Shown piece by piece: positions 31,400 through 37,300 of a stretch of DNA of 64,000 bases. Position numbers and translations under genes: made by a program. This DNA is from Maylandia zebra. Its lineage: Eukaryota; Chordata; Actinopteri; Cichliformes; Cichlidae. The DNA lies in contig NC_135176.1 of NCBI RefSeq assembly GCF_041146795.1, forward strand, positions 21,735,286 to 21,799,285, given 5' to 3'. Under the pieces are notes generated by a model. The model searched no databases. It was given only the letters and a program-made list of their open reading frames with translations, and was not told where the DNA came from. How positions within the stretch are numbered: position 1 is the first letter of the stretch; every line of letters begins with the position of its first letter.

Positions 31400-34300
31400 T
31401 TAGTCAATGTCCATTTCAGGGAGATTTTTCTCTGGCGTTTTTGTCTGCTGTTCCGTGCCCGCGGGCGTCGTTTTGTCCGGGTTGCACGGTTGGCTCTCTG
31501 TTCCCTCCTGTCCGTTAACCGGCCCATTCTCCGTCTTCTCCTCATTAGGAGGCTCCACCTTGGGTTTGGGCTTGGGTTTAGACAACACTGGGTTGCAGGA
31601 TGCATAAAGCTCCTAAAGAGTAAAAAGATACACATGCTTAGAACATGACATCACAGTTTTTAAACTTAAATTCTTCAGCTCATACCACAATGACAAATTA
31701 CTTCAAACTGCTTGGCAGCTACTACAAGACTGAGTGTCGTTTTTGGCGTTGGGTTTTTGTGAAATCTTCAGATGCTCTTAGGCCGTCAGTATAAGGAAAA
31801 CAAAAGATAATGATGAATAATGATCTTAATCACCATTAAAGTAAAATAATAATAATAATTCATGTTTATTCTGTTAAGATTTTTTTAAGTTGATGTTACA
31901 AAAGTATACTGGATAAACTTTGCTAATATGTTCATATTTATATTACTGTCTACTAATTGTAGACAATGAGCCCTTAAAACCCTAAGGAAGCCCATAATGA
32001 AGCTCTCTTAAAGAGCATGCAAGTGGTGTGTGTGTGCTTTTAATGTCTACCTTAGTCTTGGCCTTGATTTCTGTAACTTTGACCACTGGGTCCACGGTGA
32101 GGTCTTGATTGTTCTGCTGGTTCATCTTGCTGTTCATCCAGACCATGGCATCATTTACCTGCTTGTCCACCCTGGTCACCTCCAGCTCATCCAGATGATC
32201 ATAGAGCTCGTCCTGTTGGGGCACACAAAAGTAAATTTGACAAACGTCTGGGGATTCTTGAGCTTAGTCTGTGATATGTCTGACCTACAGCTGTTCTTAA
32301 AACTTTGTATAAAGAGTTCAACAACAAACCCTGGTTACCTTTGCCTTGTAAGCTTCAATTATCTTCATGTACATCTGGATTTGTCTCCCAAGCTCCTCAA
32401 ACGCTTTCGGCCTCTCCTCAGCTTCCACGTATCTCTCGTGGATAGGCTGGCCAATTTTCTGTTAAAGCAACATCGTCAGTAAGGCCGCAAAGTTATTCCA
32501 AATATCTGTAGAGTGAACCATTTTATGTCTTTTTTTTCCTCCCATAAAACTGTCCAGTCATACAATGAGTGCGTAGTTACCTTGAGTTCAGCCAGTTTGT
32601 CGATATAAACTTGCTTCTGTTGGTCTTCTCCATCTTCATACAGCCAGTTCTCTGTGTCCTCCAGTTTTAATGAGAACAAATCGCGATCCTGCATGTGAAG
32701 CAGTGAGGAAGATTCATTGTTTAACATTAAACGCATGCATTTCATCTGAACTGAAGGTTTACACTTAGTTTAAATTGAACAGAATCCAAATGTTACAGAG
32801 ACGATCAGTGTATGATGACGTGTCCAGTGTGTACTCACTGCTTCATTCACAAACTTCTCCAGGATGCCGTGGAGTTTGTCCCTCATGTCGTACACGTACT
32901 CCTCCACGTTGTTCTTTGCATCATTCCTCTCCTTTTCCAGCTTATCCTGCATGATCATCTTACCCTGGAGGAGTCACAGTAAAGTCTACATTAGTTGAAC
33001 TACTTAGTTAAGTGTGCACCAAAAAAAACAAAACAAAACAAACAAAAACAAAACAAAAACATACAAAAAAAACACCTGAGGATGAAGCAAGACAACATTT
33101 ACAATTTCAGGTATATTCCTGATGTTACACATGTCAAAAGAAAAAGAAAAAAAGGTGATATTATGGTTTGATTAACTGATTAATTATCAAATGATCAAGA
33201 GTTGTCCATTTTTAGGGGCTGTTAATGATAAAAGCCAAATCAGCTCCTCCCTTTTTCACACTGTTGGCTGCTTAATATGTTCGTTTCTATCTTTTGCTGC
33301 TTAGACAAATACATGTAAACAGCTACACTATGGAGACACTTCTTTAAATGTTAATGGTAACTAGGACAGCTTAACCCAGGGCCAGTGAGCATCACTAGGC
33401 ATTACTGCTTGAGACAACACTGTGCATGCACACCACACATTCCTTGTGATTTTTACAGCATTACCTCATTTTCCACAAACAAATTTAGTTCTTCTCCGGA
33501 AAGCTGCCAGTCCAAGCTGCTCTCTATGGGCAGCTCCAGTGTTTTCGTCTTTACTTTGGGCTTCTTGGCCTGAGGAGGCTGGTCGTTCTTCTTCTCCTGC
33601 TGCTTGGCATCCTCTGTCGTTGTCTGTAATAGCAGAGATGAAACACGTTTTTCCCCCACCAGACAAATCAGCAGTATTTGACTTCAGCCTTTTTGAGTAC
33701 TTGAAAAGCTCCAACTTCAAACGTGCTTTTGTGTTTCACCAGTTTCACAATTGTACCATCTGTATAATTTTATTGTGCTTTTTGTGATAGGTAAATTCTG
33801 GCCTGTATTGACTGTAAGTTTCTATATTGTTAGTTTATAATTTCTTCATGAGCCTATGGCTTTTATTTGTTATGTCAAAAGCAAAATTCCACATGATAAA
33901 GTATGGATGCATTTTTCGTTGTAAGTGAGAGGAACAATTATAGTTTTAAGCTCTGGGAATGACGACACTTTTGGAAAGTGATGACACCTCAGACCTTCAG
34001 AGGGCCATTTGAGGTTTGCTTAAGACATGGTTTTAGAAGTTAGTCTTTACAAATAGAGAAATTTATGTGTGTTTTTATGTTAAACAGCATGCTTCAAAAA
34101 AATAAAAAATAAATGAATGTTTTAAATTAAAAAAAAAAAAGTCAGTGGCAAATCATGTTTCTTAAAATAATGAGGAAAATAAAATGTATTGGATGTATTG
34201 GTTACCTGGTGCTGGGCGATATGGTTAAAAATTACAATAATGGTCATATCTTGCCAGACATATATTTCACAATAGACACTGCTGGAGTAATACATATCAA

Positions 34301-37300
34301 ATTTTACATTAGCTCTGCCAAATACTTTTTCCCCAGTGGCAGAAATAAGCTTCCATAAGTATCCATGTACATGTGTATCAGTCTATTTTGGGTTATTTTT
34401 GTGTTAAACACTGTAAATTGTGTCTTTAGGGGAACAAGGTTTGTTGAGGAAAGTGAACTTCTTTTACATTTTAAAGTCTTCGGGTTGCTGTATGCGTAGT
34501 ACTTATACAGAACAATCTAATTTTTCTTCTATATGAACGTATGTACCCATGTATGTACACATGTATGTATATATGCATGTATGGGCATTAGGGTTTCCTT
34601 ATCGCCCAGCACAAGGTTACCTCCATTTCTTCTGTCTCTATTTTCTTGTCTCCGTTGTCTCCAGCCTGGAGTTTCTGATCCTCCTGGTCCACTTGCATTT
34701 TGCTCTGACACACGGTAACGAAAGAAAGAATATACATATAATTAAATTAAAACAACATGTGCTGCTCTGTTGCTGGTGTCATCTATTAAATCTGGGTTCA
34801 GCCCATTTTAAAATGGCAGTCCCCAGCAATTATTCAGATGTTCACGTCAAGGTTTTGGAAATGTTTGTGTCATGTGCACTCCTGTTCAAGAGTTGCAATC
34901 AGTCTGTATGCAATAGTGTAGTCAGAAACCTTCATTGCTAAAGCTATTAAAGCCATCTAAAGCTTGTCAAGACAAGATGCCTAAATAATACAGTAATGGG
35001 GTGGGGCTGGAACTAGGTTACTGATTGAAAGGCTTTCTCAGGCGCAACACAAACAGAAAGCAAACATTTCTCCCGTCTCTTCCTTACTGATATACACATA
35101 CCCTCTCCATGTCATTAGTGTCTAACAATCAGTGCAAAAGCACATAATACACACCTCCTCTTCCTTCACGATCTGGTCTGTTTCCATTGGCTCCTCTCCT
35201 TCAGCAGTTTTCACGACTTCAACCAACGAGGCGCTTGATACACTGAACACACCGTGAACGTTCACCCGAACTTTTACCTTGACCTTTGCGCTCTCCCCTG
35301 ATGCCTGAGGAGCCACATTCTGGATCAGAAACTGGCCTGCGGAGTTAAAAGTTAGCACTGATGAAAATACCTGCGCATATATTAACAAATAAATAGAAAC
35401 TCACAGAACTGCATCTAAATCTGAATGAAGTTGCTGTACCTATAGTGGCTTTAGGGTAAGGCAGCTCCTTGGGATTGTTGTAGTAGGCTTCAAGGCTGAA
35501 TGGCTCTTTCCGATAGAAGGTCAGTACTTTAGAGAAAGGAGCTGCGTGGTTCTTTGGGAAAACCTCACAATCACTGCAAAAAACACAGAAAGAGCAGGTG
35601 ATTGAGACAAATATACAGGGACAGGACATCAGAATGTAAACTCAATTTTCTGTTCATGTCATCGATGGTTTGAAACAAGCTGTGCTAGCTTACAGTTTTT
35701 ATTCCAACAACGCAAGTGGTGAGAGAACTGACACGAAGCCTACCATTTGTCCTCTGAAGGTTTCCACCTACTCAACCACCCACCCACCTACCCACCAGCA
35801 CGCACCAATCTGTTATTTGGCAACAGTTTATAAAACACATCTGAAGTCTTTATCAAACTCAAAGATCATTTATGAGAGGGTTTTAGGGCTTGAAACAGGA
35901 TTTGGATGTTATTTAGCAAAACGTGAATGAATCCAGAAAAGATTTTTGATACTGGATCTGCGTGGTACATGGGTGTGGGCAAGGTGTGGCAGAAAGTCGT
36001 GAAGGGAGTCAACAGTACGAGTTCTGGCTAAGCTTACCCTTCAATATAATAGGAGCAATGTAAACAGGAGGACAATACATTCAAGTATTAAACCAGCTGC
36101 ATTAAAGGGATGTTTGTGCTACTTTCTGTTAGATTCAAGCCTAAAGAGTACCTGAGTCCTTCCTCTGCAGCTGAATTCCACTTTAGGGAGATGGAGTAAG
36201 GGACAACATCTGTAATTGAGAACTCTCTCACTTTGAAAGCTGGTGACAAGATGGCACACTGAGGGGAAAAAAACACAACAACAACAAAAACCAGAATTTT
36301 AAGGTTAAACTTTTGTGTTCTTCATTTTCAGGCCAAAAATAGTATTCAGTATTCAGTATCAGTATTTGTGAATCTTTTTTGTTTTGTTTTTTTAAACTGT
36401 CTCCAAATCTTTCACAGATCACAGCCTTCAGCGATCCTCTCATAGGTCTCCCTCCTGGTATAACACAGCTGTTACTGTGTGAGTCTGCTGCCTGAGTCAC
36501 TGTGGGGATCAAAGTGTTTGCCATGTGACAGGCATGCTGTACCTGCAGAGCACAGCCCCTGGCCACGGCCTCGTCTGCATTTAGGGTGGTGCTCAGCTCT
36601 TTGCCGAAGAATTTGCTGATCCGCTCTTTGATGGCAGGGATTCTGGTGGCGCCACCCACGATCTCAACTGCATATATATCCTCCTTTTTCAGCTCTGGAT
36701 ACAAAAAACAAGCGACAATCACGAAACAAAGCAGGTTATTTAGGTTTACAAAGTAATACGTTTCATATTTGTTTCATTTTATTTTTAAAGTTGAAAAGTA
36801 ATGATTAAAGGAAGGCTAACGTGCTGCTATTGTCCAGGGGGAAGGGCTACCACAGCAAAGCACATGACTGAATGTGTGAGCGTGCACGTGCCTACAGGGA
36901 TAGTCCAGCTGCTATTACAGTCTCATGTACTCACTGGCTTGTTCCATGACGCTGCGCAGGGGACCCTCGACTTTGGCCAGCAGCCCCGAACACATCTCCT
37001 CAAACTGGCCTCTGGGGACACATGATCATAAATTATTAATAGGTGCAGCCAACATGCACACTATGGAAAACTCCATTAATTTAAGAAACAACACTATTCC
37101 CTTTTTAAAATACTTGTGGCTACATGCTATATGCTGATCTTATTCTCTTATTTAATTTAACTTTACTTCTTACCTGTTTAGTTTACTGGAAACATCAATA
37201 TCATTCATGAAGCACTCAATGTTGAGAGGGAGGTCAGAGGAGTTGGCACTCATCAGCTTCTTGAGCTTCTCGCACTCCTGGTAGAGCCGCACAAGTGCAC

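Follow-up and report, generated by a model that had tools for sequence, protein, structure and literature searches.

A probable hAT-type insertion into the 5′ splice site of hspa4 intron 13 in the cichlid Maylandia zebra

An inverted-repeat element at the start of hspa4 intron 13

We analysed a stretch of 64,000 nucleotides from Maylandia zebra (assembly GCF_041146795.1, here G000; contig NC_135176.1, here C10; positions 21735286-21799285), which is called the window below, and the genome searched comprised 962 Mb in 63 contigs. The window contains an hspa4-type gene of the Hsp110 family on the minus strand, extending from about 42.9 kb to 31.4 kb (limits read by eye), whose product matched Pfam HSP70 and yeast SSE1 structures in its C-terminal part. 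Exon numbers, by which the exon concerned is exon 13, and the acceptor of exon 13 are our own count and reading, made independently of any annotation, and the donors of the other exons were assigned by eye. Exon 13 is followed by a phase-0 intron that begins with a 407-bp element bounded by terminal inverted repeats. The account that we consider probable is that a hAT-type transposon inserted into the 5′ splice site of intron 13 and duplicated the donor, with the exon-side donor still being the one used.

Directly outside the inverted repeats, the 8-mer GGTTACCT is present twice (Table 1). On the hspa4 strand it reads AGGTAACC (AG/GTAACC; slashes mark junctions) and corresponds to donor positions -2 to +6, and AG/GT is contained in both copies. 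The initial annotation had described an element of about 407 bp between two copies of an 8-mer made up of the last two bases of exon 13 and the first six of the intron, and our reading of the exon end agrees with it on both counts. The end 12-mer GTGCTGGGCGAT occurs exactly at 34209-34220 on the plus strand and at 34601-34612 on the minus strand. Where up to two mismatches were allowed, 5 matches were counted in the window and 2.17 would be expected, which makes the motif weak evidence by itself. The combination of repeats is rarer: when the window was scanned for inverted 12-mer pairs with starts 60-1500 bp apart, a slack of 0-3 bases being allowed and 8-mers composed of one or two letters excluded, only 1 of the 78 pairs (seen in two registers) had an identical 8-mer outside both arms.

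Table 1. Coordinates of the element, its flanks and the surrounding hspa4 features in the window
Feature	Position	Strand	Basis or remark
Putative non-autonomous hAT-type element, 407 bp	34208..34614	.	Family likeness at the ends only
Left terminal inverted repeat GTGCTGGGCGATATGG	34209..34224	plus	Inverted-pair scan
Right terminal inverted repeat GTGCTGGGCGATAAGG	34597..34612	minus	15/16 identical to left repeat
Exon-side target duplication AG/GTAACC	34615..34622	minus	Proximal 5′ splice site, GT at 34619-34620
Distal target duplication AG/GTAACC	34200..34207	minus	Potential second 5′ splice site, GT at 34204-34205; potential 3′ splice site CACCAG/
hspa4 exon 13, 84 nt	34621..34704	minus	Protein end ...KIETEEME, last bases GAG at 34621
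hspa4 intron 13, 997 nt in present state	33624..34620	minus	Exon 13/14 junction reading
hspa4 exon 14	33465..33623	minus	First bases ACAACGACAG at 33623, preceded by ...TATTACAG
In-frame TAA met if element retained	34588..34590	minus	Translation of retained sequence

Relatives of the element and age of the intron

The genome contains 18 occurrences of the 16-mer that forms the left end of the element and none of its reversed control. In each of the 17 other copies the 16-mer was immediately preceded by TA, their left ends reading TA/GTGC. A 13-base end pattern, with up to two mismatches allowed, was used to look for second ends, which were located for 14 of these 17 copies (L005, L015 and L022 had none; L001 and L014 are one copy, counted under L014). 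The 8-mers flanking the 14 copies agreed at all eight positions in seven, at 7/8 in four, at 6/8 in two and at 4/8 in one; for L006 the farther end (966 bp, 8/8) was chosen over the nearer one (398 bp, 2/8). Sharing of the 16-mer was built into the query and the second ends were selected by pattern, so that neither is independent evidence; the preceding TA and the duplications do count as such. The boundaries proposed in the initial annotation differ from the family ends by one or two bases at most, and ends located elsewhere would have spoken against the insertion.

In one family copy, L004, a reading frame encodes a BED zinc finger that passed the Pfam cut-off (PF02892, E 1.6e-4). An 8-bp target duplication, TA-ended repeats and a BED finger are features linked to hAT transposons, and a family that combines them, with short terminal inverted repeats common to its copies, would fit the hAT superfamily. 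The window copy is too short, at 407 bp, to hold a transposase. Apart from the element itself, the genome DNA search gave four short matches, three of which were TGTATGTA-type repeats. The fourth, on C21 (L011 1501-1564), spans 60 bp at 81% identity to window positions ~34299-34358 and lies beside an inverted arm; it had been considered as a sibling copy and was taken instead as a piece of another palindromic repeat. The filler of the element may include a piece of such a repeat.

The age of the intron was judged by comparison with a second hspa4-type gene (L041, G000:C2:37905000-37914000), which is 72-87% identical over four matched pieces and is likely the genome-duplication partner of the window gene. 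This paralogue reads ...GAAGAGATGGAG/GTGAGA...CCTTAG/ACTTCCACAGAG, with its intron at the same phase-0 position, EEME/T, as in the window gene. At the protein level the junction is ...SEEME/TSTEEN..., in DNA GAAGAGATGGAG/GTGAGATG and then CCTTAG/ACTTCC, and the intron follows the same ATGGAG. In this 189-nt intron we found neither end 12-mer, no GGTAACC and no element. A more distant relative on C19 also has an intron in the corresponding linker, with the donor AGCAGTAAG/GTTAGT (read by eye). Since an element-free paralogue has an intron at the same position, the comparison indicates that intron 13 is older than the element and that the insertion struck an existing donor. Together with the hAT-type ends and the 8-bp duplications of the family, this upholds the view, already present in the initial annotation, of a transposon on an existing 5′ splice site, with donors now on both sides of the element, one of them next to the exon. 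Subtraction of the element and one copy of the duplication leaves an intron of 582 nt.

Two other stretches of the window may also derive from transposons. At 46685-47404 on the minus strand, upstream of hspa4, adjoining reading frames resemble a broken Tc1-type transposase, and at 49145-49816 on the minus strand a 224-aa open stretch has a BED-finger-like segment and is perhaps another hAT relic (both read by eye).

Donor choice, predicted pairing and competing explanations

According to the account favoured here, a non-autonomous hAT-type element would have been mobilised by a transposase of a resident hAT family. The sequence and the comparison with the family copies support a staggered cut between donor positions -3/-2 and +6/+7, after which repair would have copied the bases in between on both sides. 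The exon would have kept a complete donor, GAG/GTAACC, and the element would have become the first part of the intron. The spliceosome would then use the exon-side donor and remove the element with the intron, leaving the protein unchanged, and the distal copy would be a spare donor; splicing from it would yield a truncated message, which would probably decay. Occasional transposon hits of this kind on splice sites are to be expected, we reason, where such elements and introns are both numerous.

The exon-side donor is intact from -3 to +6 and is the same as that of the inferred empty site, ...GAAATGGAGGTAACCAATACATCC. The initial annotation had described it as recreated by the duplication; its bases from -3 to +6 are continuous with the exon, and in this sense the donor was never broken. 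The distal donor reads CAG/GTAACC, with a C supplied by the element at -3 where the exon side has G, so that the two donors, described before as identical, are identical over the 8-mer and differ at -3. When donors were scored with a donor matrix, the two duplicated sites ranked first and second among the 48 GTs of exon 13 and intron 13. The apparent end of hspa4 exon 17 (window 32339, minus strand) is AAG/GTAACC, an inferred donor read by eye with the same hexamer as that of exon 13; this second occurrence of GTAACC as a probable donor was counted in favour of the account as a whole. The exon-side donor is probably the one used, and the gene probably still splices normally, because this site is the first to be transcribed and gives an exon of 84 nt; the insertion would then be neutral, as the initial annotation supposed. 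Use of the distal donor would retain 415 nt, shift the frame and reach a stop after 10 codons.

Several observations weigh against this account. The donor matrix gave the distal donor 7.49 bits and the exon-side donor 6.57 bits. The window copy has the terminal bases TG or G on its left side and AA on its right, unlike the TA...TA of the family, and an 8-bp duplication requires the loss of one base at the left end; without that loss the duplication would be 7 bp (GGTTACC). The inferred empty site is unchanged under either length, and 8 bp is favoured because the family duplicates 8 bp. In the genome DNA search, whose counts are lower bounds, the interior of the element had no sibling, so that membership of the family rests on the ends. 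The 160-aa frame of family copy L016 had no match in Pfam or NCBIfam, and its match in PDB was at chance level (E 0.34). Lastly, the ends of the transcribed element, donors included, are predicted to pair, and such pairing could hide both donors.

Folding predictions gave a measure of this last effect. The two GGUAACC copies are predicted to pair through six pairs around a central A-A, and inclusion of the duplication changed the stem formed by the element ends from -29.0 to -38.4 kcal/mol, a gain of 9.4 kcal/mol. The 491-nt region folded better than all of 100 shuffled versions (z -3.38). However, the gain of 9.4 kcal/mol was matched by 101 of 3000 random 8-mers and by 20 of 256 AGGTNNNN 8-mers, and in a joined model of the empty site most of the single donor was likewise predicted to lie in pairs (positions -3, -2 and +1 to +3). 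Because the gain is not rare and the donor of the empty site is paired as well, the prediction is no strong evidence that splicing is hindered, and we regard donor pairing as a possible modifier.

Whether any insertion took place can be asked of the same data. The flanking 8-mers and end repeats might have come together by chance; the interior, for which the genome DNA search returned no other full copy, and the end 12-mer, not rare in the window at two mismatches, would be compatible with this. Such a coincidence is nevertheless very improbable in view of the 18 genomic matches of the 16-mer end against none for the control, the 8-bp duplication rule of the family and the combination of inverted and direct repeats, which was unique in the window scan. 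Slighter still is the chance that the element landed, like an introner, in continuous coding sequence and created the intron with splice sites supplied by its duplication. The AGGT that this model requires is present in the duplication, but the C2 paralogue has an element-free intron at the same codon boundary and in the same phase, which contradicts an origin by insertion, and 582 nt of intron are left once the element and one duplication copy are removed.

The remaining alternatives accept the insertion and concern the use of the two sites. The distal copy has AG directly before GT and could also serve as an acceptor in nested (recursive) splicing, a possibility that the initial annotation had not raised. 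In that case, which we hold to be unlikely, the distal CACCAG/GTAACC would act first as a 3′ splice site and the element would be removed as an intron of its own (GTAACC...CACCAG). The intermediate would join ATGGAG (34621) to GTAACCAATACATCC (34205), rebuild GAG/GTAACC exactly and then be spliced to exon 14, giving the same final mRNA as splicing in one step. An AG right before the second GT corresponds to the juxtaposed acceptor and donor of ratchet points, as described in passages of PMC8605326, and CACCAG/GTAACC at the distal end of the element shows this layout in its sequence, with a middling pyrimidine tract. The scheme also follows the AGGT logic of transposon-made introns set out in parts of PMC3443670 and PMC9860276, and the terminal repeats, if they pair in the RNA as predicted, would bring both sites close together. 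On the other hand, only 10 of the 17 bases from -20 to -4 before CACCAG are pyrimidines and a further AG is found six bases upstream; the proximal donor scores lower than its distal counterpart, yet it can reach the natural acceptor directly. Splicing of a substantial proportion of transcripts from the distal donor is about equally doubtful; this would make the insertion a partial loss-of-function or expression-lowering allele, possibly polymorphic. CAG/GTAACC does exceed the proximal site by 0.9 bits in the donor matrix, since the element supplies C at -3, and the stop after 10 codons is present in the sequence. Its use, we reason, would require an internal exon of 499 nt instead of 84 nt and would have to compete with a proximal site that is transcribed first. 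Use of the exon-side donor after a hAT-type insertion thus remains our preferred explanation.

Relation to known systems and meaning

Maize Ds1, a hAT element of the Ac/Ds family, is reportedly spliced from messages, to judge from titles by Dennis in 1988 and Wessler in 1991 and from one by Giroux in 1994. The Ds cases known to us are insertions into exons, in which sites within or beside the element are used. Passages of PMC3260210 describe the 8-bp target duplication of Ac/Ds and Ds elements of which some resemble Ac in hardly more than the terminal repeats or are filled with unrelated sequence; the window element is similar in its length of about 400 bp, in having little but terminal repeats in common with an autonomous relative and in its 8-bp duplication. 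It differs from maize Ds in that its target was the existing 5′ splice site of an older intron, a case known here from sequence alone.

Duplication of AGGT at a transposon target site is a recognised route to new introns, according to sections of PMC3443670 and PMC9860276. As in the introners treated in parts of PMC9860276, a DNA transposon with AG/GT in its target duplication could supply splice sites; unlike there, no intron was gained at hspa4, where the intron predates the element. In a mulberry survey, small inverted-repeat elements (miniature inverted-repeat transposable elements, MITEs) at 5′ and 3′ splice sites were linked to alternative splicing, and the mechanism named in passages of PMC6593561 is the presence of splice-site-like motifs inside the elements; copying of a pre-existing donor by a target duplication is not mentioned there. 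Ratchet points and recursive splice sites, as portrayed in excerpts of PMC8605326, resemble the putative arrangement at hspa4 in that an intronic AG/GT acts as acceptor and then as donor. The fungal [D1,2] stwintrons are likewise introns nested within the donor of another intron, whereas the portions of PMC12403724 that deal with them give no sign of a target duplication, from which the layout at hspa4 arises. A transposon that duplicates an existing 5′ splice site was not found described in the open-licence PMC literature, as far as titles, the beginnings of abstracts and passages go. The principle of AGGT duplication is thus already known from maize Ds and introners, and the variant at hspa4 is a strike on the existing donor of an older intron.

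Insertion of a transposon into a donor would ordinarily be expected to disable the gene; in hspa4, a complete donor stays with the exon and a spare one lies behind the element. With two almost identical donors 415 nt from each other, the locus offers a clean natural experiment on donor choice by the spliceosome, and on whether transposons can persist at splice sites by virtue of their 8-bp duplications. It also provides a well-defined point from which a recursive splice site could develop. Should splicing rely on the exon-side donor only, the insertion would be a neat but unremarkable curiosity. There is a small chance that a single donor became, through the insertion, a functional twin intron, in which the element is spliced first and the donor is rebuilt. 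If that were true, a transposon with an 8-bp duplication that hits a 5′ splice site in the same register would be self-correcting, and in this way transposons could build up at splice sites and give rise to recursive ones.

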